A stretch of 64,000 bases of DNA, from contig JAFUAB010000027.1 of the NCBI GenBank assembly GCA_017460885.1, positions 50,731 through 114,730 on the forward strand, given 5' to 3'. Positions within the stretch are counted from its first letter, which is position 1. Every line of letters starts with the position of its first letter. This stretch comes from Lachnospiraceae bacterium (GTDB taxonomy: Bacteria; Bacillota; Clostridia; Lachnospirales; Lachnospiraceae). Below, in pieces: positions 35,039 to 56,979 of the stretch. The notes beneath the pieces are model-generated. The model saw nothing but the letters and a program-made list of their open reading frames with translations, was not told the origin of the DNA and did no database searches. A program made the translations under genes and the position numbers.

Positions 35039-35485
35039 TCAGAACAGCAGATTCAGTCCCCGGGGTTCTTCCTCGGTGAGAGTTCCTGTGGTCTCAAGTT
35101 TCCAGCGTGTAACATCATAAAACGTATCACCGTCCTGCATCGGATAATTGACATCCAGGGATACGCTCAGTGTCTGCACGTCGGATACCGGGATCGCAAA
35201 TTCTATAGACTGCCCCGTCTGGGCAAAATAATCATCCCTTGAAAGACCCGAATCATAGAGCTGCTTGAGGGTTGAGTCAATATCGGCTATCCTGGCTTCG
35301 GCCTGGTTGCAGGCATCGTAATAGCCGCCGGTACGTTCAACGATCTTGTCGTTTAGCTTCTTGTCCGCGTTTGAGGATACCGTAGCCAGAGTTGCAAAGG
35401 AAACCAGACACATTACGACAAACACCAGCAGAAGAGAAGATGTTCCGACATTTACTCCCGTAGAATTACTGTTTTTTGAAGCCAT
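35039..35485 (-). CDS. Small single-span protein, last gene of the pilus-like operon
   Basis: 148-residue protein with a short polar N-terminus, one membrane helix (residues about 17-38, LLLVFVVMCLVSFATLATV) and an extracellular part. The extracellular part starts with a heptad-rich helix (ADKKLNDKIVERTGGYYDACNQAEARIADIDS) and ends in beta-rich sequence. I cannot assign a family by name. Its place after pseudopilin-like genes and the single-helix layout suggest a minor pilin or an assembly protein. Its ATG overlaps the stop codon of the preceding gene as TAATG, so translation is coupled. It lacks a canonical prepilin cleavage motif. Confidence 0.65.
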   Translation of the reverse strand: MASKNSNSTGVNVGTSSLLLVFVVMCLVSFATLATVSSNADKKLNDKIVERTGGYYDACNQAEARIADIDSTLKQLYDSGLSRDDYFAQTGQSIEFAIPVSDVQTLSVSLDVNYPMQDGDTFYDVTRWKLETTGTLTEEEPRGLNLLF

Positions 35486-35946
35486 TATCTATCCCCCTGT
35501 CTGAACTGCACGTAATGGCAGATATCCTGTGAAGAGATTCCGGTGCCGTCTGTTCTGGATACTTCTATTACAGCTGTTTTCATTATCCCGCCTGCGGTTT
35601 CACCGGATCCCGCTGATCCGGTGCTGCTTATCCTGGCTGTATAAGAAGCGGAAGCGGAGTCGGATAAGGTATTCCATTCGTTGTCATAAAAAAGTACAAG
35701 ACTGCCGTTTTCGTATACCGCAGAGTCATACAGCGGGACCATGCTTTCGATATCACCGTCCGTACCCAGATAACCTTCTGCGAGATTCTGGATTATCAAT
35801 GTTGCCTGGGATGATTCCTTGGTGACCGTATTGGTATTGTATGCATTTACAAACAGCTGAACGCATACCACGGATGCTATCGAGAAGAACAGGATAACTA
35901 TGATCAGCTCCATCAGAAAGAGGCTTGTTTTGGAATTAGTTTTCAA
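35485..35946 (-). CDS. Pseudopilin-like protein
   Basis: 153-residue protein starting at a TTG (MKTNSKTSLFLMELIIVILF...). AGGAGG 10 nt upstream decides this start over the longer ATG frame to 36054. The N-terminus resembles a type IV pilin helix with a glutamate after a short basic leader (LFLMELIIVI), but the expected Gly before the cleavage site is absent. The rest is beta-rich and mentions no known domain. It overlaps the end of the DUF4860 gene by 11 bp, a tight coupling. It is probably a minor pseudopilin of the apparatus encoded here. Whether a prepilin peptidase processes it cannot be told, and no such gene is in the window. Confidence 0.62.
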   Translation of the reverse strand: MKTNSKTSLFLMELIIVILFFSIASVVCVQLFVNAYNTNTVTKESSQATLIIQNLAEGYLGTDGDIESMVPLYDSAVYENGSLVLFYDNEWNTLSDSASASYTARISSTGSAGSGETAGGIMKTAVIEVSRTDGTGISSQDICHYVQFRQGDR

Positions 35947-36445
35947 TTGCCGTTCCTCCTTCCTCTGCGGTATGGGAACTGAGTACGAGAGAAATGCTGT
36001 TGGAATTCTCGGTTGTGATATCAACGTTGTAAAGCCCCGGAGATATCTCGTCAAAGGAAAGATCCTCGATACGTATTATCTTCGTACCTGCTGACGGTTC
36101 CATTTCCATATCCGCACGGATCAGCAGTTCGCACAGATAACCGTCATAGGAATATATAAATGTATTATATATCGTATTATTGACTTCCTGAGTCATTATA
36201 AGCGCTTCCTCATCGCCGATATTTCCGATGGAAAGAGCTCCCTCCTCATCGTTCTGGCGGAGCTTCTGCGTGATATATGCATATGAAGTCCTGTCAGTAA
36301 AGCTTTCCTCCATATGGTTGACGGTACTCTTATAAATATTTGCCCCAAGGATCACGAGAGTGAGCGCGGAGAGTGCAAATACAAAGAAGAGCGTAAGTAC
36401 AAACAGGATGTCCACCATATGTTTCTTTTCGCCGCCGAATTCCAT
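35936..36445 (-). CDS. DUF4860 domain protein of the pilus-like operon
   Basis: 169-residue protein with one membrane helix (residues about 10-35, MVDILFVLTLFFVFALSALTL) and an extracellular beta-rich domain (RTSYAYITQKLRQNDEEG, TFIYSYDGYLCELLIR). This matches DUF4860, a family known from Clostridia and found beside GspF- and pilin-like genes. It is probably a minor pilin. Its start lies 11 bp after the stop of the gene upstream, and the next gene starts inside its last codons. Confidence 0.72.
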   Translation of the reverse strand: MEFGGEKKHMVDILFVLTLFFVFALSALTLVILGANIYKSTVNHMEESFTDRTSYAYITQKLRQNDEEGALSIGNIGDEEALIMTQEVNNTIYNTFIYSYDGYLCELLIRADMEMEPSAGTKIIRIEDLSFDEISPGLYNVDITTENSNSISLVLSSHTAEEGGTAIEN

Positions 36446-36456
36446 AGTCAGATTCC

Positions 36457-36801
36457 TTATTTTTGTCCGCCGTTAAGCGGTATAATGGTTATGTCCGGAT
36501 ACATGTTGCTTCCTATATACTGATAGTCCACGTAGAACAGATCCTCATTATAGGTCAGGCCGTAATGATCATATAAATAGTTCAGGCTGGGAGGATATGT
36601 ACCCTCCACGGCATAGCACTGCGCGACATCTCTGGAGAGTGCGTTCTGAAGGCTTTCCATCTGTCCCTCGAGTGATGATCGGCTTACATAGTTGACTCCG
36701 AACAGGAAGATGATCACAACGATCACTCCCATTACCAGAGGCAGGAACTTGAGAAGCTTACGCAGGATATTTGCTTTTTCGTTGGTGTTGAATCGGTTCA
36801 T
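36457..36801 (-). CDS. Small pseudopilin-like membrane protein
   Basis: 114-residue protein: a basic N-terminus, one membrane helix (about residues 17-42), then SLQNALSRDVAQCYAVEGTYPPSLNYLYDHYGL and a beta-rich end (YIGSNMYPDITIIPL). The YAxEGxYPxSLxYLxxHYGL pattern is typical of minor pilin-like proteins in clostridial loci. There is no classical prepilin cleavage site. It lies 46 bp after the GspF-like gene in the same direction. Confidence 0.65.
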   Translation of the reverse strand: MNRFNTNEKANILRKLLKFLPLVMGVIVVIIFLFGVNYVSRSSLEGQMESLQNALSRDVAQCYAVEGTYPPSLNYLYDHYGLTYNEDLFYVDYQYIGSNMYPDITIIPLNGGQK

Positions 36802-36846
36802 TATATACTCCGAAAAACTGATCCGGTCTGCTGTTATGTGATAGCC

Positions 36847-37890
36847 TTAGCCGATGGAGCTCATGATGCCCATCAGAGGGAGGATTACCGAAAGGAGGAT
36901 CATTCCTACTATCAGCGAAAGAATGATGACCAGCGTGGGTTCAAGTACTGCGATGATATCGTGTATACGCTTGTCCACCTCATGATCATATTCGTCCGCG
37001 ATCCTGTTCATGGCTTCCTGGGGATTACCGGATTTGAAACCGATCGAAGCCATACGTGACTGTACACTTGAAAATATCTCTGCTTCCTTGAGGGCTTCGG
37101 AATATTCCTTTCCCTCCAGAAGATATTCTTTACATTTAGCGATCTTGGCACTCATACGGTCATTATCGATCAGACCGGCTACCAGATCAAAGCCCTCGTA
37201 GGTATCCATTCTGCCGTAAACCATGGCAACTCCGCTTGCGAAGCGGCTGCAGGCAACTGCGTCATTGAACTTGCGCGTAGCCGGGATTGCATCCAGTATA
37301 CGTGCAAGAGTTTTTTTGCCGGCGGGTACCTTGCTGAAAAAGATATAGGCGGCGATGATAACAACGAGCAGGATCACGAGAACAACCGAAGAGGAGCTCA
37401 GGCGGTTGCCGAAGTTCATCAGGCTCGTTGAAAAAGCGTTCATCTTGCTGCCCAGCTGTTCGAATACCTGGTTGAAGATAGGCAGTACCTTGGTGATCAG
37501 GACGATGATGACAAGGAGCATCATAAATATCATGATCATGGGGTAGGTTACGGCATTTTTTATTCCCTCCGAAATGGACTCCTGACGACTGTAGTAGTCG
37601 GCCAGTGAACGGCAGATCGCCTTGTCGTCGCCGGCTCTGAGTCCCAGCCTGACCATGCGTATAACATGCTCGGGAAAGGCACCGCTGTTTTCGAGAGCCA
37701 CATCAAACTGACCGTGCTCGTTCAATTCATTGAGGATCTGTTCAAGCATTGCTTTGGCGGAAGCACTTTTGGTATCGTTGAGCATTATATCTATACCCTC
37801 ACGATAGTAGATACCTCCGTCCAGAAGCATGGCCATCTGTCCGAAAAAGGTAGCCAGCTCGGCATTACTGAGTCTCTTTGAGTTTGCCAT
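36847..37890 (-). CDS. GspF/PilC-type inner membrane platform protein
   Basis: 347-residue platform protein of type II secretion or type IV pilus machinery. It has two T2SSF domains, each with the family pattern: residues about 10-130 (FFGQMAMLLDGGIYYREGIDIM) and about 210-340 (CSRFASGVAMVYGRMDTYEGFDLV). Membrane helices lie near 115-140, 168-190 and 318-342. It recruits the assembly ATPase in known systems. No GspE/PilB ATPase, PilD peptidase or major pilin gene is nearby, so this operon depends on genes elsewhere or is reduced. AAGGAA precedes the start. Confidence 0.9.
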   Translation of the reverse strand: MANSKRLSNAELATFFGQMAMLLDGGIYYREGIDIMLNDTKSASAKAMLEQILNELNEHGQFDVALENSGAFPEHVIRMVRLGLRAGDDKAICRSLADYYSRQESISEGIKNAVTYPMIMIFMMLLVIIVLITKVLPIFNQVFEQLGSKMNAFSTSLMNFGNRLSSSSVVLVILLVVIIAAYIFFSKVPAGKKTLARILDAIPATRKFNDAVACSRFASGVAMVYGRMDTYEGFDLVAGLIDNDRMSAKIAKCKEYLLEGKEYSEALKEAEIFSSVQSRMASIGFKSGNPQEAMNRIADEYDHEVDKRIHDIIAVLEPTLVIILSLIVGMILLSVILPLMGIMSSIG

Positions 37891-37913
37891 TGGTAGATTT
37901 CCTTTCGTTTATA

Positions 37914-39110
37914 TTAATAAATATATTTGGTCTCATAGTTGGAACCGTCGCCGATAAATTCACGCAGCTCGTCCGCACTGGCACTTGCGGCGAAGGTGGG
38001 ATCCATCAGCTCCCAGGAGGTTCCGTTAAACTCTACGATGCCGTTTACCCAGCCTACATCGGTCAGGTATACGGAGATCCATGCGTGATATGCGGTGCTG
38101 GCGTATCCAACTTCCAGATGTGTGGGGATCCCCTGACTACGCAGCATGGAGCTCATCAGACACGCATAATCCAGACAGATTCCCGTACAGCTGTTCAGTG
38201 TTCTGTCCGGATCGGGAAGATAACCGCTTTCCACACTGTTGGCCAATGCAGAGTCATAGGTAACGTTTTCGATCAGATAGTTATATACGCTTGAAACAAC
38301 GTCAAGGTCGGTGTTTGCACTGTAGGCGAGTTCTTCAGCCACGGCAACGCACTGACTGCCGGCATTAAAGTTGACATATTGGTTGGGATACAGATAAGGT
38401 CCGAATTCATTGGCAATATTCACCGATATATCCGTTCTGAAACAGGTGGAATACTCCGATCCGGAGATGTTTTCGTAAGCCCCTATCGAATATGTACCGC
38501 TGTCCACGGTCAGAGGAAAGACCTCATAACCGCCGGCCGTAATATTATAAGTATAGGTGGTGGTGTTGGGACAGGTTATCTGAAGCTTTACCTTCGGACT
38601 GGATCCCGAGTACATCACGGATATGTATCCCTGATCGGAATGCGAAGCATCAATGGTAACAAGCTCGTTGCCGTAGACCTCGGTACCGGGTTGTTCCGGA
38701 ACAAGTATCACGGGAGTGTTATCCCTCGATCCCGGCCCGTCGTTCGCCGTTTCTTCGGGTACTTCTTCAGCGGTATCACCGACGGTTTCCTCTGCGGCGG
38801 TGTCCGATACGGTATCTGAGGTTTCTTCCTCACCCGCGGCAGGAGCGGCTTCAGGGGATCCGGAGGAGTCGGAATTGTCGGAATTACTGCCGGCCTTCTT
38901 TTTGAGCTTCTTCTTTTTGCCGGACGATCCTGCTTTTTCCGAGTCGGAAGAATCGCCCGAGACCACCTTGCCCGATGCGTCGATCACACCGCCGCCCTCG
39001 GATATGGAAGAGGCTTTCAGATCCGGAGATGATCCGCATCCGCCCAAAAGAAGGGATATCGACATCCCTATGGCTAATATACAGTTTAATCTTTTATCTG
39101 ATCTGAACAT
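37914..39110 (-). CDS. Transglutaminase-like lipoprotein
   Basis: 398-residue lipoprotein: a signal peptide with lipobox LLLGGC, then a Ser/Asp/Glu-rich linker (to about 150), a beta-rich middle and a C-terminal transglutaminase-like domain. The catalytic triad is visible: Cys312 (GICLDYACL), His342 (YHAWISV) and Asp370 (LMDPTF). Such enzymes are proteases or peptide-crosslinking enzymes at the cell surface. In this operon it might process or crosslink pilin-like proteins, which is inference. I chose the ATG at 39110 (MFRSDKR) because the longer frame to 39194 overlaps the previous gene. No strong ribosome binding site is seen. Confidence 0.85.
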   Translation of the reverse strand: MFRSDKRLNCILAIGMSISLLLGGCGSSPDLKASSISEGGGVIDASGKVVSGDSSDSEKAGSSGKKKKLKKKAGSNSDNSDSSGSPEAAPAAGEEETSDTVSDTAAEETVGDTAEEVPEETANDGPGSRDNTPVILVPEQPGTEVYGNELVTIDASHSDQGYISVMYSGSSPKVKLQITCPNTTTYTYNITAGGYEVFPLTVDSGTYSIGAYENISGSEYSTCFRTDISVNIANEFGPYLYPNQYVNFNAGSQCVAVAEELAYSANTDLDVVSSVYNYLIENVTYDSALANSVESGYLPDPDRTLNSCTGICLDYACLMSSMLRSQGIPTHLEVGYASTAYHAWISVYLTDVGWVNGIVEFNGTSWELMDPTFAASASADELREFIGDGSNYETKYIY

Positions 39111-39127
39111 AAGAAAAGCCGTACGGT

Positions 39128-39613
39128 TTATTGGGGCGGAGTAAGCAGCATATGAACCTCTTCGCCGTTTAAGTCGCTCACATAGATATTCCACTCGGTC
39201 TTATCATATATAAATGAAACAAGACCTGTTCCGGAATTGTATTCCGCCGGATAAACCTTTGCCCCGGATTGAGATACGGCGTATACGGAAGTATAGTCTA
39301 TAAAGGATCCGTCAAGATCTATGTAAAGCATATCACCCTGAACATAGTATTCGTTCACTCCTATGTCAGGTTCTGCGGCCACACCCTTCTGGCCGGAGGT
39401 AAAAACAAAGATGAGCGGGGTCAGGAGTGTGAATACCAGCGCCGCGATCACAAGATTGGCGTATTTGGAATACCCCTTTGCCGCATCGATCCTGGTGGTA
39501 AGCATTTCATCTATCGGAGTGCTTGAAACCTTCTCACATTCATCCAGGACACTGGCGAGAGTAGCGGAAGCCGCTTCTTTGTTCATTGTATATTTTTTCT
39601 TTTTGAATGACAT
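39128..39613 (-). CDS. Single-span membrane protein, possible anti-sigma factor
   Basis: 161-residue protein with a cytoplasmic N-terminus of about 50 residues, one membrane helix (about 54-73, LVIAALVFTLLTPLIFVF) and an extracellular domain of about 85 residues (VNEYYVQGDMLYIDLDGSFIDYTSVYAV). No classic zinc anti-sigma motif (HxxxCxxC) is present. Because it directly follows the sigma factor gene (17 bp apart), it is a candidate anti-sigma factor. The sequence itself does not prove that, and its family is not one I recognise. Confidence 0.6.
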   Translation of the reverse strand: MSFKKKKYTMNKEAASATLASVLDECEKVSSTPIDEMLTTRIDAAKGYSKYANLVIAALVFTLLTPLIFVFTSGQKGVAAEPDIGVNEYYVQGDMLYIDLDGSFIDYTSVYAVSQSGAKVYPAEYNSGTGLVSFIYDKTEWNIYVSDLNGEEVHMLLTPPQ

Positions 39614-39629
39614 AATGATCTCCCGCAGG

Positions 39630-40199
39630 CTACTGCCTGCTCCTGAAGTAATTCTCTATATGCTCTTTGCCGCTGATCAGATATCTTTTGACCGAGCTTT
39701 TGCTGTATCCGAGCATTGAAACTATTTCGTCTATTTTCATATCATTATAGTAGCGCAGTATTATACATTGCTTCTCATGGGCAGGCAGCGTGTCGATCGC
39801 TTCGTACAGCATGGATACCTCCTCCGCATGTTCCGTACGTGCGGAAGGGTTAATATCCTCCTTGTCATCATGGATGATCTCAAGAAGCTCGGGATCGATT
39901 ATAGCTCCGTAATCCTTGGAATTCTTGCGGCTGATGTCATGGCACACGTGAAAGGATATCTGGTTGAGCCATGCCACGAACAGAGTGGGATCGTTCAGCT
40001 TGGATATATTTTTGTACGCTAAAACAAAGACCTCCTGAACCGCATCCTGCGCCAGATAGTCATCTCTCAGATAGTGACGGGCATAGTTGTAAACCTTGTT
40101 GTATGTCAGGCCGTAAATCTGAGTGAAAGCATCCATATCACCATGCTGCAGTCTGACAACAAGTCCCGATATGTACTTGTGGTCAAGCTCTTTACTCAT
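39630..40199 (-). CDS. RNA polymerase sigma factor, ECF type
   Basis: 189-residue sigma-70-family factor with region 2 (YNYARHYLRDDYLAQDAVQEVFVLAYKNI..., FVAWLNQISFHVC) and region 4 (LPAHEKQCIILRYYNDMKIDEIVSMLGYSKSSVKRYL). Regions 1 and 3 are missing, as in ECF factors. Its start codon overlaps the end of the GGDEF gene by 4 bp (ATGA-type coupling). It very likely controls this operon. The target promoter cannot be identified from one site. Confidence 0.9.
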   Translation of the reverse strand: MSKELDHKYISGLVVRLQHGDMDAFTQIYGLTYNKVYNYARHYLRDDYLAQDAVQEVFVLAYKNISKLNDPTLFVAWLNQISFHVCHDISRKNSKDYGAIIDPELLEIIHDDKEDINPSARTEHAEEVSMLYEAIDTLPAHEKQCIILRYYNDMKIDEIVSMLGYSKSSVKRYLISGKEHIENYFRSRQ

Positions 40200-40924
40200 G
40201 TCAGCGGATCTTCCTCCAGCTTACGGTAGGTTACCATCAGCAGATCGGCGAGACGCGAAACGTGTTCGTTGTCATTGAGAGCGTAAGCATACTCGATCTC
40301 GATAGGAGTTTCCACATGAGACATGTTGTACAGATTGATCGCAACATACATGTCGGAAATGAACTGGACTATCAGATCATCGTCACATTCTTCGAAGATA
40401 CCCAGAAATTCGTTACCGCCGTTACGTCCTACAAATCCGTAAGCTGTACCGACATCCTTAAGAATGATACAGAAGTCCTGGATGAGCGAGTCACCGACTT
40501 CGTGACTGAATCTGTCATTGATGGCTACCAGATTGGTGAGCTTGAGTACCGTAACACCGATCCTGTTCATAGTGGATTCGGAATTGTGCATGCTGATCAT
40601 CAGATCGACGCTCAGACGGTTAGGCAATCCGGTAAGCGAATCCACATAAGCTGTATGTGAAAGTTCGGAATTCTCGGATGCCGCATTCTTGAGCATGTTG
40701 AAGTCGATCAGCATACATACAAAAGAAATGATCAGCGCTATCCACATCATCAGACACAGCGAAAACAGAAGCTTGTTTGTAAAAACAGCTGTTCTGAGCG
40801 CCTTGTTGAAAATAAGGATAAGAAGATAGACGATCTCGACAATAAATACAAGAGTGAGCTCAAGTGCCTTGATAGCCCTGTAAGCAGATAAGCTGTCCTT
40901 GGGCTGGTTGTTACTCTGATTCAT
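40196..40924 (-). CDS. Membrane protein with degenerate GGDEF domain
   Basis: 242-residue protein: two membrane helices (about residues 20-40 and 52-75) followed by a diguanylate cyclase-like domain. The motif DSLTGLPNR at 95-103 is present. The active-site loop, however, reads GGNEF (169-173) instead of GGDEF, and the first metal-binding Asp of the LDxD segment is replaced (LKLTNLVAIND). It is therefore probably inactive and may bind GTP or c-di-GMP as a sensor. It heads the pilus-like operon, with AAAGGT before the ATG, and overlaps the sigma factor gene by 4 bp. This links the operon to nucleotide signalling. Confidence 0.82.
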   Translation of the reverse strand: MNQSNNQPKDSLSAYRAIKALELTLVFIVEIVYLLILIFNKALRTAVFTNKLLFSLCLMMWIALIISFVCMLIDFNMLKNAASENSELSHTAYVDSLTGLPNRLSVDLMISMHNSESTMNRIGVTVLKLTNLVAINDRFSHEVGDSLIQDFCIILKDVGTAYGFVGRNGGNEFLGIFEECDDDLIVQFISDMYVAINLYNMSHVETPIEIEYAYALNDNEHVSRLADLLMVTYRKLEEDPLT

Positions 40925-41163
40925 GATTAAGATACCTTTCTTTTGTGTAATGGTATTTGATGAAATATAATTATATAAGAAAAAACGGTAAAAGGAAAGA
41001 TAATATTAAATTTCTCGAAAAAAATAAAAATAAATTGACCCTTTTTGATTTTACGTAACGTCTTATTTAGTGACATGGATCGAGGAGGTTTTCGTATACT
41101 ATCCTGTGATCCGTGAGGATTGGATGATTGATTTGTGAGATTAAATCAATGGAGGTAGTAGAG

Positions 41164-41499
41164 ATGATATCTGAAGGTTACAGCTTAATCATTATCGAGG
41201 ATGAGCAGACAGCTTTGGCGGGAAGTATCCCTGCGGTTCTCGGATCCAAGAGCACGATGTTTCTTGTGACCAGCCTTATGATATTACTGGTAGCTGCTAT
41301 TATCATAGGAGCAGCAAGAGCGATCAGCATTCAGAGAGCCCAGTCAAGACTCGAGGAACTGTGTGAACTCGGCGGTATCGAACCCGGTGAGTACAACTCC
41401 AGGAGTATCAGGAGCATCCGCAACCAGATTCTTGTACTTGAGAATGATATTGCTGAGAACAGCCTTGGAGGAGTTATTCCTTCGTTCCATGCCGGCTGA
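41164..41499 (+). CDS. Small single-span membrane protein of unknown function
   Basis: 111-residue protein: MISEGYSLIIIEDEQTALAG, then a membrane helix (about residues 32-56, MFLVTSLMILLVAAIIIGAA) and a short coiled coil (SLEELCELGGIEP, RNQILVLENDIAE). The IEDExTxLAG segment before a membrane helix resembles the stretch near the C-terminus of some clostridial surface proteins. GGAGG lies 7 nt before the ATG at 41164; an earlier frame start at 41128 has no site. It is divergent from the pilus-like operon and may belong to it, but that is unproven. Confidence 0.6.
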   Translation: MISEGYSLIIIEDEQTALAGSIPAVLGSKSTMFLVTSLMILLVAAIIIGAARAISIQRAQSRLEELCELGGIEPGEYNSRSIRSIRNQILVLENDIAENSLGGVIPSFHAG

Positions 41500-42074: not shown

Positions 42075-42108
42075 TTACAGTAAGGTATTTTGTGTAGGCA
42101 TTTTTTGA

Positions 42109-42645
<537 letters not shown>

Positions 42646-42660
42646 TAGGAGGGAAAGATC

Positions 42661-44778: not shown

Positions 44779-44849
44779 GAGTTTGATTACCTGAAAGTGA
44801 TCAGATGAACATATGCTTGCCGTGAACGGCAGCAGGACTTAATTAATGC

Positions 44850-46722: not shown

Positions 46723-46836
46723 TAGACAAAAATTTGCAGATTACCATTAAAGCGATACGGGAAGAGTGGAGTTGATGATACGGATTCCCGGTACTGACAT
46801 ACAGATGGTGAGATGATGATACCGAGGAGGAAAGGT

Positions 46837-49800
46837 ATGAATACAGAGTCAACAATAACAAAAAAGAAGAGAAAACCGTTAAAGGCAGTCCTGGCGATAT
46901 GCATGGCGTCGCTCATGTTGTTCCAGACAACCATAACGAGTTACGCGGCCTATGAGGACAGCGGGGTCGAAATAAGCGATCCCGGAGCTGATAATTCAAC
47001 GGGAGGTGACAACGCAGAAGCCGATGCCGGTGGGGAAACAGAGTCTGGCTACATCGATAACGATGCGTCGGACGAAACCGACGGGATCGTAACATTCGAT
47101 GCCGATGGGATGGATGAAACCGACGGGATCGCAGCATCCGATGCCGATACGCCGGACGAAACCGACGGGATCGCAGCATCCGATGCCGATGCGTCGGACG
47201 AAACCGTCTGGATAGTAACATCCGATGTCGATGGGATGACGGGATCCGCTAATGCAACGTCCGATATCGATACAGAATATCTGGATTTCGGTGGTTTTGA
47301 GGTTCCCGAGATAGGCATGAGGGTGGCCATAACGGCTCCGTATGATGCATTTCCCGAGGGAACGCAGGCTTCGGTCAGCTATGTTAATGACAAACCGGAA
47401 GTGACAGATGTCATAAAGGATGCATTGATAGGTGAGGTTACAATAGAAAATCTGTATACGGTGGATATCTCATTTACTGCAGACGGCGAAGAAGTACAGC
47501 CTTCCGGGGCTGTCAATGTTGTATTTGACAGTATTGAAGGAACAGCGGAAAAGGTAGCTGTATTTCACGATAATGACGGGGATCTGGAACTTGTTGCAAA
47601 CGAAATAAATGAAGGTACGGTAGAGATCGAAACGGATGCATTTTCCAAGTATTATGTGGCCACTTATGATTATGAGATCAGTGGAGTAAAAGAGGTCACA
47701 AATGAAGCTGGGTTTAGAGATGCGCTAAAGAACGGCAATAGTGTTTCTCTTAAGGATAATATCACTCTTTCCAAGAACACCACGGCCATTCCCAAAGGCG
47801 ATATGATCTACGTATATCTGAATGGTCATACGATTACGGTTGAGCAGCATTCATCTGAGATGTTCAGCCTGGGTAAAGGTTCCGCTCTGACAGTTATCGG
47901 AGGAACCTTTAGCGGAGCCCAGACCTCCGACTCTGCCGGATATGTATTTGAATGTGTCGGCACATCAGACGAAAGGACAAAGCTTGTTCTGGGTGACGTC
48001 ACTGTCACGGGCTTAAGGAGGACTTTCGCTCATGCAGGCAGTTATGCTGATATTATCGCGGAAGAATGTAAATTTTATGATAACTCTGTAGCTGACTACG
48101 GTGCGGCATTCAGAGGACATAATAATTCTTCCATTAAAATTGTTAATTGCCGCTTTGAGCGTAATAAGGCGGGAGGAGACGGCGGCGCCATCAACGTCAA
48201 TACCGCTGATATCATAACCGAGGGTACGAACTACTTCATTGGAAATATTTCAGGAAACAGGGGTGGAGCGATAAGCGTGGAGGCCACTGTGAATCCCATG
48301 GATCTGACAGGTTGTCGTTTCCTGGAAAACACCGCGTCCGGAGAAGGCGGAGCAGTCAGATATAAAGGTAATGGCAAACAACTCACACTCTCCGGCAGTA
48401 TGTTTGAGGAAAACATATCCAACTCGAGGGGTGGAGCCGTATTTGTGGATTCGGCCCCCTGCGTGATCGAAGGATCTGTCTTTAACGGCAACGCTTCTAA
48501 TCTGAACTCGTGGGGAGACGGCGGCGGCGCCGTTGCCTTTGCCGGAGCCTATGAGCTGACAATTGATGAGGACTCGGATTTTGAGAACAATTACGCTTAT
48601 TCAAGCGGTGGAGCCATAGCATTTAAGGGAAGTAACGGTTCAAAGATCACAATTAACGGAACCTATGTAAATAACATTGCCGAGCACCATGAGGGCGGTG
48701 CCATAATAGTTAATTCCGCTGATGGCAAAATGGCTCAGGCCGAGCTGGTAAGCGGACTCTTTGAAGGCAATAAAACCGGATATACAAGGGAAGGAACACG
48801 GTGGGACGGATACTATGACTGGGGCGGCGGTGCAATATTCGTAACAGACAAGGCTAATATCCTGGTTCCCGCGGACACTCTGATCTATAAAAATTACGCC
48901 GGAGGTTATGGCGGCGGTATTGCAGGATGTTCCACCGGGCGTGTGTTCATCTACGGAGGAGAGAACGGCCATCCCATATTATTCGATAACTCAGCGGAGG
49001 GAACACATTTGTCAGGCTCCCAGTCAAGCAAGAGTGATGACAGAAGCTATGCGGCAAAGAGCGATGTATTCCTGCAATCGGGATTTCAGGATTTCTACTG
49101 CGCCCTTACCAGCGTGGTATCGAGGAACGTGTTCGCCAAAAACATTAGCGGCAGCATTGATCTGGTGCCGATCGATCCAAATGAAACAGGATATTTTCCC
49201 GCAAGTTACGCAACCGGCATTACCTCCACGGGATATGAGGCCAGGGAGGCTGCTGTTGTTATACGTGGCAACTATTCGGCAACCCATGGCGGAGGCATAT
49301 TATGTAACGGTTATATCGTAGTAGGTGACCCCGAAAATGCGCCCAGGCTTTCAGTAGGTAAGTCACTGGCGATAGAAGCCACCAAGCTGCTTAGAAAAGG
49401 GAATCAGAGAGTCGGACAGAATAAGGACGAGTTTGGATTCATCCTGTCTGATGATATTAAGGGGGAAAATGTTATTCTCACCGGTACAAATGATGCTAAC
49501 GGAAATATCGTCTTTGGAGGAAAGCTTTCCTTTGATCAGACTAATTTCCGGGGAGAAGGAGATAACAGTACATATACATATATCTATTACCTGCAGGAAG
49601 CTGATATAACAAACAGTCTGAGAAACGTGGTTAAGGACGATTCAATATACCGGATAGAGATACCAGTTAGAAAGGAAACCGTAATACAGACCATAGGAGA
49701 CGTTCAGTTTACTACAGACAAATATAAGATCATGAACGAGGAAGAGGTAAAGGTAAAGGTCTATCTTGGATCGAAGAATGCCGATACCGGGGAATATCAA

Positions 49801-52800
49801 TTTGACGAGGCTTCGATCACATACAGCACATCGGACGAGAGCCATGCCGATACTCTGACACTGACCCCCGGAAGTTATACTTTTACCAACAGCATAGAGG
49901 AAAGTGTATCCATAAACGGGGTTAAAACCTGGAGAGCCGACGATGAAGACGAGAGACCCGAAAGCATCACCATCAGACTTTGGACAGGTGAAGACGATAA
50001 GAAGATAGAGATTGCCGACAAGACTGTCACAGCAACGGATGACTGGAAGTGGAATTTCGGATCAAGATCTAAATATGACAAAAACGGTAATGAGATCATT
50101 TATTCAATAACTGAAGATCCTGTTGAGAACTATGACTCAGTGGTCGACGGATTTAACGTAACCAATACCTTTAATCCGCATACCACAGATATCCGGGTTG
50201 TCAAAATCTGGGATGATGAGAGCGATAAGTGGGGAATGCGCCCCGATTCACTTACCTTTACAGTGAAAGGCTTTGATGGGGATAAGCAGGTGGTCGCTGA
50301 TCGCAAGGTGGTCATAACCCGTAATGCTGATGAAAAAATGTCAGTGTCCGAAGATGGAGACAGATGGGAATACGTGATAACCGGTCTGCCTGAAAAGGTT
50401 AAAAAGAAAACGGTTACCTACAGGGTATATGAGAGTTCGGACTCTGACGGTGCGGGTTATTACCAAGGAGCCGTATCCGAAGGTGTGGTGCCTGATGAAA
50501 AAATGGAAGTAACCTTTACCAACACCTTCACTCAGGAATATATAACCATCAATGGAGCCAAGAGATGGGAAGATGAAAATAACAAATACGAATCAAGGCC
50601 TGAGAGCATAAACATAAAAGTATACTCTGTCGGAACGGGAACTGATGGAGAAGACGAGCTTGTTAAAACCGAGACCGTTAGTGGTAATAATATTACAAAT
50701 GATGGCTGGGCTTGGGAGATCACTACGGACGAGGATGGAAAGGGACTGCCCAAATATAAGAATAAAAAGCCGGTTACGTACAGAGTTGAAGAAGAAAAGA
50801 CCGGCGATCTGTCCTATTACAGTACTTCGGGCGCTGTCACCGGTACTGTAAATGAAGGCAAAGTACTTACTGCGAACTTTACTAATACCTATAATCCTGA
50901 AACGGTTGACATAACAGTCAATAAGATATGGAACGATGACGGAAACCGGGACGGTAAGAGAGGAAATATTACAGTTCAGCTTTACAGAACGATCACCGAT
51001 GCTTCCGGAATTGAAAAGACTGAAGCATATGGTGAGCCGGTAATCCTGACTGCTGAGGATTCTGATGAGGCTGCGGAGAACGAATGGTCATATACCTGGG
51101 AGGGATTGCCTAGGCAGTACAGAAATCAGGATGTGTCGTACAGTGTAGCGGAGATTAAAGGTCCCGAAGGCTATACTGCATCAACCAAAAAAATAAAAAA
51201 TGATGGAACCGAGTGGAAAATAACAAATCTCCATGAACCTGAGACCATCAGTATCAGTGGATCAAAATACTGGGATGATGATGGGGATCGTGATGATGTA
51301 AGACCTGATTCGGTAACCTTTGGACTGTATTATGCAAATGAAGATCCCGTGAGAGATGCCAATGGAAATTCTCTTACGGTAACGGCGAGTGAGGATACCG
51401 AATGGAAATGGACTTTTGACGGTTTACCCAAAAACGAATATAAAGGCGGAAAATCTACGCCTGTGACATACGTCGTCAGAGAATTGGAGCTGCCTGAGAA
51501 ATACAGGCAGGAATACAGGCTGACCGGTGTATATTCAGGTAATACGATCGATGAAGAACACAGGTTCAAAACTCCTGACAATGCTGATTACGCAATTGTA
51601 TCAGGACAGGATGTATCAGGCATCGTATTTGTCAATACACATAAAATATTTACCCGGGATCTGTCCGGAACCAAGGTATGGGATGATAAGAATGACAATG
51701 ACAGAGTGAGACCTGACGGCATCATCATAAAAGTATATGATGCAGATGACCTGGATACACCCATCAAAGATTCCGAGGAGAAGGATGATCTGATCGCTGA
51801 GATCACGAACAACGCAGACGGAACACAGACATGGAGCTTCAGGGATCTTCCGAAGTACAAGAAAGTCGGCAGTGAACGACAGGAAATCGAATATGTGGCA
51901 AAGGAAGTCGGCTTAAGGATTTCAGATGCCGATGGAAATGTCAGTATAGTAGAGCCGTATGATGAGAGCGGTGTGTTCAAATATGATACCGCTGATATTA
52001 AGGATGTGGAATATACACAGAGCATAGATCCCGGTGATCAGTACACCTTTGTTAATACCTATAAAACGAAAACCACTGATATAGAAATAATCAAGGTTTG
52101 GGATGATGAGGGTGATCGCGACGGCTTCCGCCCTACAGGTATCGAACTTGAATTGTATGCGGATGATCACAGCCCGGAATCACAGGGGGCCAAATCGGTT
52201 AAAACCGTAAAGGTGATGCGAGACTCCGGGGATGAGAATCTGAGCATATCCGAGGATAAGAATCTGAGCATATCCAAGGATGGAAACAGCTGGACATACA
52301 GTTTCACCGGTTTGGATATGTATAAGAATGGTTCCGAGATCGATTACTCGGTGGAAGAGACCGGAGTATATTACCTGGATAATCAGGGTAAGGAGCATTA
52401 TGCAAGGGTTGAGGCCGGAGCTGACAACACCATGACTCTCGTGATAGACAAGGGTGACAGCGAAAGCACAGATGACGATAAGACCGTAGTTTACAAAATG
52501 TCAAAGAACGACGATGGCAATATCGTTAACACGTATGATACGCAGAAGATTTCGATACAGGGAACCAAGATATGGGACGATAATGAAAATGCAGACGGTG
52601 TGAGACCCGATGCCATCGTAGTGGGATTATATACCGGAACCGGTGCTGACACAGAACCGCTTTATACCAATACTGTCAGAGAATCCGACAACTGGAAATG
52701 GAACTGGAATGATCTGAATAAGTACGAAAAAGGAGAAATCATAGAATACACCGTCAGGGAGCTCGGAGTATATTATGGTGAAAAATATATTGAGGTTGAG

Positions 52801-55800
52801 AACGGCGGTTTCGTATACGAAGTCGGTGAAGGAGAAAACAGGAACAGTTTCAGATACACCTCAACAGTAACAGAAGAACAGTCGGAATCGGAATCGCTGC
52901 TGAAAGTAAACGTAACCAATTCCCATACTCCCGAGACCGTGGAGCTTACGGTCACAAAAGAGTGGAAAGATGATGAAAACAGGGATCGTATCCGTCCTGA
53001 CAGTGTAAAGGTCAGCCTGAAGGCAAACGGAGAAGTCGTATCCTATAAGGCAGATACCAAAGACAATAAGACCGGGGACGATGCCGGAGGAGAAACTGAA
53101 TTTGAATTAAATAATGCAAATAAATGGACATATAGATTCAGAGATCTTCCGAAGTATTCCGGAGGTATAGAGATAGCCTATACCATATCGGAGGTGTCGG
53201 TACCTGCAGGATATACATCCAGCCAGAGTAGAAAAAGCAATGTGATCACAGTGACCAATTCATATACTCCCGAAAAGGTGATCGTATCCGGCAACAAGAT
53301 ATGGCAGGATGCTCTGATGGACGGCGACAGGGTTATAAAAGACAATGCCGATGATCTGAGACCGGCTGAGGTCAGGATCAGTCTGGTGGCAAAGGTTGGT
53401 GACAGACAGATTGATATCAATGCTGATCCTCAGATAACTACTGCTAAAAAGGGCTGGCATTATGAGTTCAGGGATCTGAATAAAAATGATGAGAATGGTA
53501 ACCCTATAACATATAGCGTAAAAGAGGATCCCGTACCCGGATATGAGACAGCATATGGAGAACCGGTTGTTAAGGATAACAACATTACCATCGATGTTAC
53601 CAATATACATAATCCGGAAAGGATAAGTGCGGATATCACCAAGATCTGGGATGACGATAATGACCGTGACGGGATCAGATCTAAGATAGGTACTATCAGG
53701 ATAGAGCTTTACAGGCATGTGGGCGGCGAAGAGACTGAGGAGTATGTGACCGAAGCGGATATAACGGTAGATGGAGGAAATTACCAGACATATTCCTTTA
53801 AAGGGCTTGAAAAGTACAGATTCGATAAGAATACAGGAGCAGGGGATGAGTACATCTATACCATAAAGGAAGCAGCACCGGATGCAGATCCTGATTACTC
53901 GGCTTCATATGGCAATAACGAGAACGGCCTTACGGTAACCAATACTCATTCTCCCGAACTCACTGAAGTGAATGTTGAAAAGATCTGGCTTGATGAAGGC
54001 AATCAGGATGGGTCAAGGCCTGACAGTATTACTTTAAAACTGTATGACAGGGACGATATGGATAATCCCGTCCGGGTAGCAAAGAATGTTACGGGGTCTA
54101 AAACTGCCGACAAGTGGATCTATACTTTTGATAAGCTCCTTAAATACAAAAACGGCTCCGAGATTCAGTATGTTGTCATAGAGGATCCGGTTGAGAGCGC
54201 CAACGGATCAAGGAATGCTGATGGAACAGTCAGAAAGTATGTTACTGAATATCCCGACAGCGGCGACGGCACCAGGATCATAAACAGATATGACACAGAT
54301 AAAATTAATGTGACTGTCAAGAAGGCATGGGACGATGATGATAACCGCGATGGCAAACGTCCTGCTGCGATCACCCTGAATCTTAAGACAAAGGATGATC
54401 CTGCCACGATCATAAGCACGGTGAAACTGGGCGAGACGGAGGCAGAAGGCATCATCGTTCCCGATAGGGATGAGAATGGTGTCTGGGTTTATACATTCAG
54501 TGGCCCGGACGGTGGGGGACTTGACAAATACGCCGGCGGCAAGGAGATAGAGTATGTGGTCGAGGAAGTATTGGAGGACGGCTCTGTATATACTCCCGAG
54601 TACGGATATGAGCCGGAAACCGACAGCCTGGTTATTATCAACAGACACACTCCCGAGTATGTGAAGCTGGAGATTGATAAGCACTGGATCATAGCTCCCG
54701 GGGATGATTTGAATGTAAAGGATGTAACAGTGGAGATCACAGGTCGTCTGGATGATCAGACGACGGTTGTGGAGGCAATCAGCAGGAAGATCACCGCAGA
54801 TGATGGATGGCGGCTTATACTCGATCCCGAGACCGACAAGCTCCCCAGATACCATGAAGGCAGACTTATAAACTACTATGTGAACGAGATCCTACCCGAA
54901 GACGCAACATATGCACAGACAAATGAGTCAGGGACAATGCTTACCGGCGACAATGCGATAATAAAGGCGGAAGCGGAGGATACTGATGCGGCAGTGACAG
55001 CACTTCACGCCGATCTGTATAATCTGCCGATTACCGAGAGGGTCATCGAGAAGGTCTGGGAGAACGATCCGGCAGGCTTCCATGGAGGAGTATCAGCTGT
55101 AGATGTTACTTTGAGGAAAAGTACGGACGGTGAGAGTTTCACGGATTATCGCTCTCATGAGATCAGAATGGATGGAGAAGGTGACTGGAAATATACATTC
55201 AGGGATCTGCCCGCATATGAGATAGTAAGATCCGAAGATGGCAGTACTGAGATCAGGAGGGTCGTATATACCGTTCGCGAAGATACCAGGCTGGAGAATT
55301 ACAATAACAATGGTGAACCTCAGATCATATCAGGCGATGATGATAAGATCACTATTATAAACACTCTGGATGGTCTTGACCTTAAGATTGAAAAGAAATG
55401 GCTTGCCGACAATGAAGCAAAACGCCCGGCATCCATCACGGTCAATGTACTCTCAAGTGTAGATATCAGGCATAACGCAACCTCAGTATTTGAAAGGTTC
55501 AAGAAGATCTTTGGCATCGATTCTGAGAAATGGTATCTGTACGACACCATAGAGCTGAAGGCAACAGATGGCTGGAAGGGCACACTTACGGATCAACTCC
55601 CCAGATATGTAATGGAAGGCGGAAGGATAGTGGCCGTAAGCTATGCTCTTGAAGAAGTCGGTGTACCTGAAGGGTACAGCTTCGATGCGGCAAACATAGA
55701 CAGTGAAGGAAACGCAGTGCTGATAAATACCGGTGATACCGCTGTAGCCGGATTCAAGGTATGGGATGACATGAAGGATGTTTACGGCTACAGACCCACA

Positions 55801-56979
55801 CCTGAAGTATTCGCCGCTAACCTGGTATTACTAAAGAATGGCATGAGCTTCTTAACGGGAGCAGATACGGAGCACTTCCGATGGATAGATACGACAACCG
55901 ATTCCTGGAGCTATGAATTCTATGATCTGCCGACAGGTTTTGATTATACCGTAAATGAAAAAGAGACGGTTACCGGATATACAGCTCCTGTGATCAATGG
56001 CTTTACGATAACCAATCCTCTGGATTACACGGAACTGACGGTTAAGAAGATCTGGGACGATAACGATAACAAATACGCAAGTCGTCCTGAAAATGTGTCC
56101 TTCACACTCCTGGTGGGAGGAAAGGAGGCGCAGATATCCGGAGTACAGCCTAAGATCGATCTTGGACACAAAAACAACGAATCCTATACCTGGAAGAATC
56201 TTCCCAGAGTTGACAAGGATGGAAAAGTTCTGGAGTACAGCGTCAAAGAGACCACGGTTCCGACAGGCTATAGCTCAAGCATCAAAAACAATGGCAGTGA
56301 ATATACCGTGACCAATACATATAGTCCCGAGATCACAACTTTGACGGTACGTAAGGTTTGGGATGACCTGAATGATGCCGCAGGCAGGCGACCCGGGGTG
56401 ATACAGGTGGCTTTGGTAAGAAACGGTGAGGATATAGATACGGTAACCCTGCGAAGCTCCAATGAATGGACTTATACCTGGAATGATCTGCCCACGATAC
56501 TGGCTGATGGTAAGGGAACGAAGGCGGTCTACAGTGTACGTGAGGTCAGTGTGATAAGCGGTTACAGCGTATCGGTAACCGGAAGTGGCAGGAACTATAT
56601 CATAACAAATTATTACAGAGCACCGTCAACTTCCGATCCTGATCCTTCCGGAGGCGACACCCCTACGATCCCGAGTACACCAACAACTCCGACAACCCCG
56701 ACTACACCCGGTACACCGACAACTCCGGATAGCTCTGCCCCCGACAACAGTATCCCTACGCCGGATCCCTATACTATTCCTGATGAACCCACGCCGCTGG
56801 CAGGTGCGAGTCAGGTTCTCGGAGCCAGACGCAGTGCTGCGGGATCAGTGCTTGGAGCCAGACGTTCTCCTCAGACAGGAGACAGCTCCAGCGTCGGAGC
56901 TTTTGTATCCTCCATGGCAGCCGCAGGGGCCATGATGGGAGCCTGGTTCTCCATGCGAAGACGAAGAAATAAAAAGTAA
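46837..56979 (+). CDS. Giant Cna_B-repeat surface adhesin with beta-helix and sorting signal
   Basis: About 3380 residues. A signal peptide (1-38, ending SYAA) is followed by four tandem 14-residue repeats (about 77-132) of DETDGIAASDAD type. A beta-rich region and a right-handed parallel beta-helix (about 285-950) with NCRFERNKAGGDGGAI-type turns come next. About 19 Cna_B domains (about 1020-3260) each open with xxKxWDDxxxxxxxRPxx. A Pro/Thr stalk (TPTTPTTP) and the tail GARRSPQTGDSS, a hydrophobic helix and RRRRNKK follow. SPQTG at 3344-3348 is the likely sortase motif. Cna_B domains in such proteins form rigid stalks, often with intramolecular isopeptide bonds; I did not verify Lys/Asn/Glu triads. 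ATG 46837 follows GAGGAGG. No sortase gene is in the window. It is presumably an adhesin presented far from the cell wall. Confidence 0.93.
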   Translation: MNTESTITKKKRKPLKAVLAICMASLMLFQTTITSYAAYEDSGVEISDPGADNSTGGDNAEADAGGETESGYIDNDASDETDGIVTFDADGMDETDGIAASDADTPDETDGIAASDADASDETVWIVTSDVDGMTGSANATSDIDTEYLDFGGFEVPEIGMRVAITAPYDAFPEGTQASVSYVNDKPEVTDVIKDALIGEVTIENLYTVDISFTADGEEVQPSGAVNVVFDSIEGTAEKVAVFHDNDGDLELVANEINEGTVEIETDAFSKYYVATYDYEISGVKEVTNEAGFRDALKNGNSVSLKDNITLSKNTTAIPKGDMIYVYLNGHTITVEQHSSEMFSLGKGSALTVIGGTFSGAQTSDSAGYVFECVGTSDERTKLVLGDVTVTGLRRTFAHAGSYADIIAEECKFYDNSVADYGAAFRGHNNSSIKIVNCRFERNKAGGDGGAINVNTADIITEGTNYFIGNISGNRGGAISVEATVNPMDLTGCRFLENTASGEGGAVRYKGNGKQLTLSGSMFEENISNSRGGAVFVDSAPCVIEGSVFNGNASNLNSWGDGGGAVAFAGAYELTIDEDSDFENNYAYSSGGAIAFKGSNGSKITINGTYVNNIAEHHEGGAIIVNSADGKMAQAELVSGLFEGNKTGYTREGTRWDGYYDWGGGAIFVTDKANILVPADTLIYKNYAGGYGGGIAGCSTGRVFIYGGENGHPILFDNSAEGTHLSGSQSSKSDDRSYAAKSDVFLQSGFQDFYCALTSVVSRNVFAKNISGSIDLVPIDPNETGYFPASYATGITSTGYEAREAAVVIRGNYSATHGGGILCNGYIVVGDPENAPRLSVGKSLAIEATKLLRKGNQRVGQNKDEFGFILSDDIKGENVILTGTNDANGNIVFGGKLSFDQTNFRGEGDNSTYTYIYYLQEADITNSLRNVVKDDSIYRIEIPVRKETVIQTIGDVQFTTDKYKIMNEEEVKVKVYLGSKNADTGEYQFDEASITYSTSDESHADTLTLTPGSYTFTNSIEESVSINGVKTWRADDEDERPESITIRLWTGEDDKKIEIADKTVTATDDWKWNFGSRSKYDKNGNEIIYSITEDPVENYDSVVDGFNVTNTFNPHTTDIRVVKIWDDESDKWGMRPDSLTFTVKGFDGDKQVVADRKVVITRNADEKMSVSEDGDRWEYVITGLPEKVKKKTVTYRVYESSDSDGAGYYQGAVSEGVVPDEKMEVTFTNTFTQEYITINGAKRWEDENNKYESRPESINIKVYSVGTGTDGEDELVKTETVSGNNITNDGWAWEITTDEDGKGLPKYKNKKPVTYRVEEEKTGDLSYYSTSGAVTGTVNEGKVLTANFTNTYNPETVDITVNKIWNDDGNRDGKRGNITVQLYRTITDASGIEKTEAYGEPVILTAEDSDEAAENEWSYTWEGLPRQYRNQDVSYSVAEIKGPEGYTASTKKIKNDGTEWKITNLHEPETISISGSKYWDDDGDRDDVRPDSVTFGLYYANEDPVRDANGNSLTVTASEDTEWKWTFDGLPKNEYKGGKSTPVTYVVRELELPEKYRQEYRLTGVYSGNTIDEEHRFKTPDNADYAIVSGQDVSGIVFVNTHKIFTRDLSGTKVWDDKNDNDRVRPDGIIIKVYDADDLDTPIKDSEEKDDLIAEITNNADGTQTWSFRDLPKYKKVGSERQEIEYVAKEVGLRISDADGNVSIVEPYDESGVFKYDTADIKDVEYTQSIDPGDQYTFVNTYKTKTTDIEIIKVWDDEGDRDGFRPTGIELELYADDHSPESQGAKSVKTVKVMRDSGDENLSISEDKNLSISKDGNSWTYSFTGLDMYKNGSEIDYSVEETGVYYLDNQGKEHYARVEAGADNTMTLVIDKGDSESTDDDKTVVYKMSKNDDGNIVNTYDTQKISIQGTKIWDDNENADGVRPDAIVVGLYTGTGADTEPLYTNTVRESDNWKWNWNDLNKYEKGEIIEYTVRELGVYYGEKYIEVENGGFVYEVGEGENRNSFRYTSTVTEEQSESESLLKVNVTNSHTPETVELTVTKEWKDDENRDRIRPDSVKVSLKANGEVVSYKADTKDNKTGDDAGGETEFELNNANKWTYRFRDLPKYSGGIEIAYTISEVSVPAGYTSSQSRKSNVITVTNSYTPEKVIVSGNKIWQDALMDGDRVIKDNADDLRPAEVRISLVAKVGDRQIDINADPQITTAKKGWHYEFRDLNKNDENGNPITYSVKEDPVPGYETAYGEPVVKDNNITIDVTNIHNPERISADITKIWDDDNDRDGIRSKIGTIRIELYRHVGGEETEEYVTEADITVDGGNYQTYSFKGLEKYRFDKNTGAGDEYIYTIKEAAPDADPDYSASYGNNENGLTVTNTHSPELTEVNVEKIWLDEGNQDGSRPDSITLKLYDRDDMDNPVRVAKNVTGSKTADKWIYTFDKLLKYKNGSEIQYVVIEDPVESANGSRNADGTVRKYVTEYPDSGDGTRIINRYDTDKINVTVKKAWDDDDNRDGKRPAAITLNLKTKDDPATIISTVKLGETEAEGIIVPDRDENGVWVYTFSGPDGGGLDKYAGGKEIEYVVEEVLEDGSVYTPEYGYEPETDSLVIINRHTPEYVKLEIDKHWIIAPGDDLNVKDVTVEITGRLDDQTTVVEAISRKITADDGWRLILDPETDKLPRYHEGRLINYYVNEILPEDATYAQTNESGTMLTGDNAIIKAEAEDTDAAVTALHADLYNLPITERVIEKVWENDPAGFHGGVSAVDVTLRKSTDGESFTDYRSHEIRMDGEGDWKYTFRDLPAYEIVRSEDGSTEIRRVVYTVREDTRLENYNNNGEPQIISGDDDKITIINTLDGLDLKIEKKWLADNEAKRPASITVNVLSSVDIRHNATSVFERFKKIFGIDSEKWYLYDTIELKATDGWKGTLTDQLPRYVMEGGRIVAVSYALEEVGVPEGYSFDAANIDSEGNAVLINTGDTAVAGFKVWDDMKDVYGYRPTPEVFAANLVLLKNGMSFLTGADTEHFRWIDTTTDSWSYEFYDLPTGFDYTVNEKETVTGYTAPVINGFTITNPLDYTELTVKKIWDDNDNKYASRPENVSFTLLVGGKEAQISGVQPKIDLGHKNNESYTWKNLPRVDKDGKVLEYSVKETTVPTGYSSSIKNNGSEYTVTNTYSPEITTLTVRKVWDDLNDAAGRRPGVIQVALVRNGEDIDTVTLRSSNEWTYTWNDLPTILADGKGTKAVYSVREVSVISGYSVSVTGSGRNYIITNYYRAPSTSDPDPSGGDTPTIPSTPTTPTTPTTPGTPTTPDSSAPDNSIPTPDPYTIPDEPTPLAGASQVLGARRSAAGSVLGARRSPQTGDSSSVGAFVSSMAAAGAMMGAWFSMRRRRNKK
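47065..47232 (+). repeat. Four tandem 42-bp repeats coding for 14-residue units
   Basis: Each unit encodes a variant of xxDETDGIxxSDAD. The second and third units are nearly identical. This acidic low-complexity spacer follows the signal peptide of the giant adhesin and could vary in copy number. Confidence 0.85.

Follow-up and report, generated by a model that had tools for sequence, protein, structure and literature searches.

A reduced type IV filament-like gene cassette of Lachnospiraceae and its possible link to sortase-anchored surface proteins

Platform protein, pilin-like subunits and transglutaminase-like enzyme

In this work we analyzed a 64,000-nucleotide stretch of DNA from a Lachnospiraceae bacterium (contig JAFUAB010000027.1, positions 50,731 to 114,730; here called the window), which carries nine tightly packed genes on the reverse strand at 35039-40924. 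The draft genome to which the window belongs (contig C5) has a size of 3.6 Mb, is 99% complete and 6.6% contaminated, and its nearest named relatives, judged by similarity to the GspF protein of the window, are Lachnospiraceae. An original prediction, made from the sequence alone, had described the nine genes as a reduced pilus-like operon encoding, in this order, a GGDEF-like membrane protein, an extracytoplasmic function (ECF) sigma factor, a single-span protein (g3), a transglutaminase-like lipoprotein (TGL), a GspF platform protein and four small proteins (g6, a DUF4860 protein, g8 and g9). Gene order and coordinates were as described, and GGDEF, sigma-70 regions 2 and 4, Transglut_core, T2SSF and DUF4860 domains were found over their Pfam cut-offs (Table 1). 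For g3, g6, g8 and g9 of the window, Pfam and NCBIfam profile searches gave no family over cut-off.

The conservation of the operon was assessed in 200 Lachnospiraceae genomes, 69 of which contain DUF4860. The genes neighbouring 61 of the 70 DUF4860 matches (the window included, the remaining nine left out) were grouped by clustering. GspF was present in 60 of these neighbourhoods, g9 in 56, g6 in 55, TGL in 53 and g8 in 51, a co-occurrence far above chance. Furthermore, a PilT-class ATPase of about 354 residues is encoded close to g9 in 49 of the 61, mostly by the next gene. For finding related loci the alignments of DUF4860 and g6 were too variable, and the GspF alignment worked; the 80 named loci picked by similarity to the GspF of the window are consequently biased to its clade. 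Of these loci, 79 contain TGL, 79 g6, 79 DUF4860, 78 g9 and 75 g8, whereas PilT lies beside the cassette in only five, as compared to 49 of 61 in the family survey. The cassette thus has a core of six genes (TGL, GspF, g6, DUF4860, g8 and g9), the usual seventh gene being that of the PilT-class (retraction) ATPase. The unit of nine genes proposed originally has to be narrowed: the six core genes travel together in the family survey, in the named loci and in other families, but the GGDEF/ECF pair accompanies only 13 of the 61 family cassettes.

The core cassette is spread across Lachnospiraceae and reaches into other Bacillota families, where DUF4860 is rare (14 of 398 genomes in a survey of the phylum, counting the window genome and one other family member). 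Of 12 matches outside the family, eleven cassette loci were examined; the twelfth, in G514, is under the cut-off. The recurrent order in these other families is TGL-GspF-g6-DUF4860-g8-g9-PilT, with PilT as the last gene of the run in ten of the eleven loci and as the first in L218. Three of the runs are incomplete: in L207 the contig ends before TGL, in L209 no TGL was called and L210 has no g9. The cassette is common in gut and rumen bacteria. Among open-licence papers we found no publication on it and none mentioning DUF4860, in agreement with the original view of an under-described system. The name of this widespread Lachnospiraceae system is uninformative.

Structure prediction, as had been suggested originally, gave folds for two of the small proteins. 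The predicted fold of the DUF4860 protein is that of a GspJ pseudopilin, and the predicted fold of g6 is pilin-like; subunits with a type IV pilin fold are thus present according to these models. Foldseek alone gave no match at an E-value of 0.001, the pseudopilins being separated only by a second aligner, and a sequence search against solved structures returned nothing useful for g6, DUF4860, g8 or g9. The platform protein of the window contains PF00482 twice, as expected for a GspF/PilC platform; no other frame with two T2SSF domains was found in the genome.

Residue conservation in TGL, the GGDEF protein, g8 and g9 was counted in pooled sequence sets. In g8, glutamate at position +5 is present in 125 of 125 sequences, and position -1 is serine in 68, glycine in 22, alanine in 18 and another residue in 17. 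Conversely, g9 has glycine at -1 in 133 of 134 sequences and no glutamate at +5. No subunit keeps both parts of the class III signal (Gly-1 and Glu+5) as a rule, the divergent locus L218 being an exception, and the consensus sequences of g6 and DUF4860 contain no class III motif. Thus, the statement that canonical cleavage sites are absent stands, but one half of the signal is kept in g8 and the other in g9. The catalytic triad of TGL is intact (Cys 131/131, His 131/131, Asp 130/131), which places the protein in the transglutaminase-like superfamily. A loose lipobox pattern occurs in 86 of 131 relatives, and from a reading of the sequence the start of TGL in the window is best placed at 39110.

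The loss of canonical sites, of a peptidase gene and, in the clade of the window, of a linked PilT could be taken to mean that the cassette is a decaying pilus remnant without function. The triad of TGL, Glu+5 of g8 and Gly-1 of g9 are, however, invariant over more than 120 sequences and the cassette persists across families, which makes a remnant extremely improbable.

Table 1. Features of the operon and of its surroundings in the window.
Feature	Position	Strand	Details
Membrane protein with degenerate GGDEF domain (GGNEF)	40196..40924	-	PF00990 57 bits, cut-off 23.8
ECF sigma factor	39630..40199	-	Sigma70_r2 and Sigma70_r4_2 over cut-offs; sigma70-ECF TIGR02937 81 bits, cut-off 42.9
g3, protein with one span, encoded next to ECF; a likely partner as anti-sigma factor	39128..39613	-	no family over cut-off
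TGL, transglutaminase-like lipoprotein, intact Cys-His-Asp	37914..39110	-	PF01841 68 bits; lipobox LLGGC
GspF/PilC-type platform, without N-terminal extension	36847..37890	-	PF00482, two domains
g6, pilin-like subunit, no cleavage motif	36457..36801	-	
DUF4860 protein, GspJ-like minor pseudopilin	35936..36445	-	
g8, pilin-like subunit, Glu +5, Ser -1 (SLFLMEL)	35485..35946	-	start TTG 35946 with ribosome site
g9, presumably GspK/PilX-like subunit, Gly -1, no Glu +5	35039..35485	-	
TATAAT, likely -10 of a housekeeping promoter of the nine-gene operon	40970..40975	-	51 bp before GGDEF start
TGACCC-N18-GTCTT, promoter element of ECF type before the divergent gene	41036..41064	+	profile score 27.9, window excluded from training
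Divergent small membrane protein, conserved family	41164..41499	+	N-terminus DEQTALAG..VLG and span
3388-aa Cna_B surface protein, possible regulon member	46813..56979	+	PF05738, 17 stretches; tail DEPTPLAG..VLGARR..QTGD

PilT-class ATPase and prepilin peptidase

Five ATPases encoded in cassettes scored 406-446 bits with the PilT model TIGR01420, the two Lachnospiraceae copies reaching 426 and 408 bits at a cut-off of 319, and stayed far below the cut-offs of the PilB and GspE models. The ComGA model (cut-off 300) gave 123-139 bits for these cassette copies and at most 144 bits overall. The consensus of the aligned PilT copies contains an AIRN-type motif. When 78 ATPases were placed in a tree, the 49 PilTs from cassettes grouped in a single clade (support 100/100), and the PilTs encoded elsewhere in their genomes ("lone" PilTs) together with the PilT of the classical locus G193 form another (96/97) outside it. 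Because these clades are separate, two distinct sources of PilT seem to serve one cassette type.

The site in the window itself has no ATPase gene, as was originally noted for the operon, and the only PilT of the genome is encoded on contig C54; in the family as a whole the absence does not hold. Eleven of the surveyed cassettes lack an adjacent PilT after correction of G169, and ten of these are in genomes with a PilT elsewhere; in the eleventh genome (G137, 81% complete) none was found. Overall, DUF4860 occurs together with PilT in 68 of 69 genomes. In the 131 DUF4860-negative genomes PilD and PilT are associated with each other, both being present in 47 cases, PilD only in three, PilT only in 13 and neither in 68 (p=6e-20).

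A lone GspE or PilB and a PilD had been suggested to be sought elsewhere in the genome. The T2SSE-family matches in the window genome are a Tad-like ATPase on contig C2 (best model TIGR03819, under its cut-off), the PilT on C54 and one sub-threshold match, so that no extension ATPase of the PilB/GspE class was found there, and the peptidases are two of Tad type from family A24 that lie away from the cassette with the Tad-like locus. In searches for ATPases, platforms and peptidases this locus on C2 was the only other filament-type locus found; the cassette is thus not a piece of an otherwise complete pilus locus in its vicinity. Across the survey, no PilB-class ATPase was detected in 38 of the 44 genomes with DUF4860 and without PilD, and one was found in six, with up to 35 candidates scored per genome. 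In G419, G534 and G430, where all candidates were scored, no T2SSE-family ATPase other than the cassette PilT passes the cut-off.

In several genera of the clade of the window, the lone PilT gene lies between two flanking gene groups, which we take to be lepA/hemW-like on one side and comM/dprA-like on the other. In the window genome (G000:C54; L002, L100) the lone pilT adjoins a gene for a 371-residue HD-domain protein of HD-GYP look.

This neighbourhood bears on the possibility that the cassette encodes a Com-like pilus for DNA uptake in competence, with PilT for retraction. GspF followed by a small major-pilin-like protein and minor pilins resembles the order of the comG operon, the lone PilT lies beside comM- and dprA-like genes, and ComEA-type HhH proteins were found over cut-off in 196 of the 200 family genomes. 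Since ComEA is nearly universal irrespective of the cassette, it says nothing on competence and was rejected as a marker. The same site is occupied by pilT in G045, a DUF4860-negative genome; the equivalog models of both ComGA (scores as above) and ComGB (105.5 bits, cut-off 240) fall well short; and TGL would be left unexplained. We therefore regard a Com-like pilus as unlikely.

The prepilin peptidase was examined in the same 200 genomes. A PilD-type N-domain is present in 25 of the 69 DUF4860-positive genomes, a proportion that does not differ from that in the remaining genomes (p=0.88; n=200). The residue at -1 of g8 shows no link to PilD either, glycine being found in 5 of 19 cases with PilD and in 6 of 32 without. 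Within 152 cassette loci, no A24 gene lies beside the cassette in 151; in control loci, seven PilD genes are recovered by the profile, and so, with weak scores, are both Tad-type genes of the window genome. On the level of whole genomes, A24 of some type occurs in 199 of 200 members of the family. Borrowing of a Tad peptidase would thus be possible almost everywhere, and the presence of A24 was rejected as a marker within the family. Two draft genomes from one genus of another family, G419 (98% complete) and G534 (92%), gave no A24 match anywhere and carry the whole cassette; the other ten of the 12 cassette genomes in the phylum survey do have A24. The exception among the loci is the divergent L218, with KG|YTLVEL in DUF4860, KG|FTLVEV in g8 and, as the gene next to g9, an A24 peptidase. 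Because this locus keeps canonical motifs and a peptidase within the operon, both look lost elsewhere, and loss from an L218-like state would be the simplest order of events.

Could the cassette then be an accessory set of pseudopilins that has no machine of its own and uses the Tad or type IVa ATPase and peptidase of the genome? The Tad-like locus of the window genome, with its ATPase and two A24 peptidases, would offer these parts, A24 is nearly ubiquitous in the family, g8 and g9 keep a partial class III site, and MSH loci without a peptidase are described, in a passage of PMC6668835, as possibly borrowing one. Against this stand the platform and, usually, the PilT of the cassette itself, the lack of association with PilD, and G419, G534 and G430, which have no other filament ATPase over cut-off. 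An accessory set consequently appears to us to be as improbable as a Com-like pilus.

The GGDEF/ECF module and a possible surface-protein regulon

Outside the core stand the degenerate GGDEF protein, the ECF sigma factor and g3, which only some clades have added to the cassette. The pair of GGDEF and ECF genes was found in the 13 family neighbourhoods mentioned above (for L041 only the GGDEF gene and a g3-like partner were called) and in 32 of the 80 named loci. A g3-type protein accompanies the pair in 12 of the 13 and is present in 34 of the 80; its low count of six in the family neighbourhoods is an effect of the clustering. As originally noted, the GGDEF domain is degenerate, and the degeneracy is conserved: the third residue of the signature is asparagine in all 55 relatives, 39 of which have GGNEF. 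The protein belongs to the GGDEF domain family and lacks the GG(D/E)EF active-site signature of diguanylate cyclases; therefore, it is probably a sensor or scaffold and not a cyclase. The sigma factor has sigma-70 regions 2 and 4, as expected for an ECF sigma factor. In L063 and L073 it forms one open frame with the g3-type protein (333 and 365 amino acids), possibly a natural sigma/anti-sigma fusion, which fits with ECF and g3 being a putative sigma/anti-sigma pair. In another family (L213 in G576), a 1104-residue frame with a weak GGDEF-profile match (40 bits) lies directly after PilT.

Upstream of the operon, TTGTATAAT is common to the window and its five closest relatives. An ECF-type element (-35 TGAACC, -10 GTCTT) was found upstream of the divergent small gene in 21 of 33 regions, a number that is a fit, the pattern having been refined on the remaining sequences after narrower ones gave 8/33 and looser ones 6 to 9. 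Independent checks are its absence in the operon direction (0/33), its absence from loci without ECF and a scan of the window's own genome. The element is present in 31 of 46 ECF-bearing as compared to 0 of 34 ECF-free loci (p=4e-11). In the scan, in which a profile from other genomes was run over 1.22 Mb of the window genome, the five top sites scored at least 19.2, as compared to a null maximum of 17.4. At a threshold of 9 there were 31 matches versus 28 in the null; hence only the top five were used. A site at 18.7 (L268), outside these five, also exceeds the null maximum, and looser promoter patterns match other places in the genome, which were left out of the regulon.

The five sites precede the divergent gene, an operon with a sortase and three genes for giant surface proteins. 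Downstream of its ECF-type promoter, the operon (L293:11814-16176) consists of a single run of genes for a SEC-C protein, a CAP lipoprotein, a sortase resembling class B and a TraX/7TM/GGDEF protein; the sortase passes PF04203 and reaches 136.9 bits with the class B model TIGR03064 (cut-off 153.75). The three giant proteins and the Cna_B protein of the window (Table 1) share tails of the type DEP(T/V)PLA..LGARR..QT(G/S)D, with ATGD in one. Three of these four giants are preceded by the element, the Cna_B gene having only a weak variant (AGAACC-N18-GTCTT at 46682, whose score of 10.5 does not reach the null maximum). Compared by eye, the N-terminus of the divergent small protein (DEQTALAG and a span) resembles the sorting tail of the giants. 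In L185 the element lies 526 bp before the gene of a 1020-residue surface protein ending in IEDEETALA and a span. In nine of the 152 loci, moreover, the cassette has a sortase gene no more than 30 bp away, directly after PilT in three (L207, L211 and L214, the copy in L214 passing the class B sortase model) and convergent with g9 in six.

The original prediction had seen a sigma factor dedicated to the filament, and this part was not supported. The adjacency and overlap of the genes, and the occurrence of the GGDEF-ECF pair in two fifths of the named loci (32/80), would speak for ECF as the regulator of the filament operon. However, the element is found in the divergent and never in the operon direction (21/33 versus 0/33), a TATAAT precedes the operon and no GGDEF/ECF pair was called in 48 of 61 family cassettes. 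Such a dedicated role is thus highly unlikely; the element precedes the sortase operon and the genes of giant surface proteins.

Beyond the divergent gene, the cassette of the window is neighboured by a ribosomal-type operon (41655-46131), presumably rpsL-rpsG-fusA-tuf; a gene that we take to be rpsL adjoins the GGDEF gene in L179 too. Just downstream of the cassette and convergent with it lies the gene of a DUF6044 membrane protein (614 amino acids, 493 bits) at 33084-34928.

Proposed function and comparison with known systems

Overall, we propose that the cassette encodes a type IV filament machine in reduced form, with a link to surface proteins that are anchored by sortase, a reading to which we assign a probability of about 0.58. 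The architecture of the cassette is well supported; the direction of the motor, the uncut state of subunits and the role of the surface proteins are what we infer from it. The GspF platform would be powered by a PilT hexamer instead of a PilB-class motor, and a short pseudopilus like that of GspG/I/J/K would thereby be assembled or cycled. No prepilin peptidase would be dedicated to the subunits: g6 and DUF4860 would probably stay uncut, and any cleavage of g8 and g9 would be due to a borrowed peptidase of Tad type. The thick cell wall would be the place where pseudopilus and TGL act, either on the sortase-anchored surface proteins or jointly with them. In the clade of the window, the GGDEF/ECF/g3 module would be co-transcribed with the cassette from a housekeeping-type promoter, and the ECF module would switch on a surface-protein programme comprising the class B sortase, the giant surface proteins and the small membrane protein that mimics a sorting tail. 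The lone PilT of the window genome and of G041 has AIRHSIH in place of the AIRNLIR-like motif found elsewhere, which calls for caution for this genus. A further-reaching version, in which the cassette is a distinct branch of the superfamily with a PilT-class motor alone, uncut subunits and no peptidase, serving with TGL in the delivery or wall anchoring of giant sortase substrates, is put forward here only tentatively.

Pilin, prepilin peptidase, extension ATPase and platform are named in a passage of PMC10191384 as present in every type IV filament machine, and in a passage of PMC6711533 the extension ATPase is termed universal. In many of the genomes analyzed here two of these four parts are missing or replaced, and in two genomes the cassette is the sole such machine found. 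If true, a motor of PilT only and the lack of a dedicated pilin-cutting enzyme would break two rules held for all such machines. The assembly of filaments by a retraction-class motor and the function of uncut pilins thereby become testable. Our results also point to a route that connects a pseudopilus with surface proteins anchored by sortase.

When compared with known systems, the cassette is like the Com pilus (ComGA-ComGG, ComC) in that a single operon encodes one platform protein and one ATPase along with a small subunit of major type and the minor pilins; it differs in that the ATPase is PilT-class instead of ComGA, that 151 of 152 loci lack a peptidase gene and that TGL is present in addition. 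Like the type II secretion pseudopilus (GspG, GspI, GspJ and GspK with GspF), it has a protein of GspJ fold, its best platform model is GspF, and GspK lacks Glu+5 as g9 does. Unlike type II secretion, it occurs in hosts that we take to be monoderm, the window genome has no GspE-class ATPase, and its platform reaches only 188.7 bits with the GspF equivalog model (cut-off 424). The ATPase resembles type IVa PilT in passing the TIGR01420 cut-off and in its AIRN-type motif, but the cassette copies form a clade of their own and a PilB-class partner is mostly not seen (38 of 44 genomes). MSH(A) pili have, in the passage of PMC6668835 cited above, loci without a peptidase, which is presumed to be borrowed; in contrast to the cassette, they are described in PMC10191384, in the part cited, as having lost PilT and kept four core proteins including the extension ATPase. 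As in known ECF/anti-sigma modules, the ECF gene is followed by, or fused with, that of a single-span protein, and an ECF-type -35/-10 element is found; here, a degenerate GGDEF protein leads the module and the element lies at the divergent gene, the sortase operon and surface-protein genes. Because two defining parts are missing, we do not class the cassette with Com, type IVa pili or type II secretion; it would work like a type IV filament, with which it shares the core fold and the platform.

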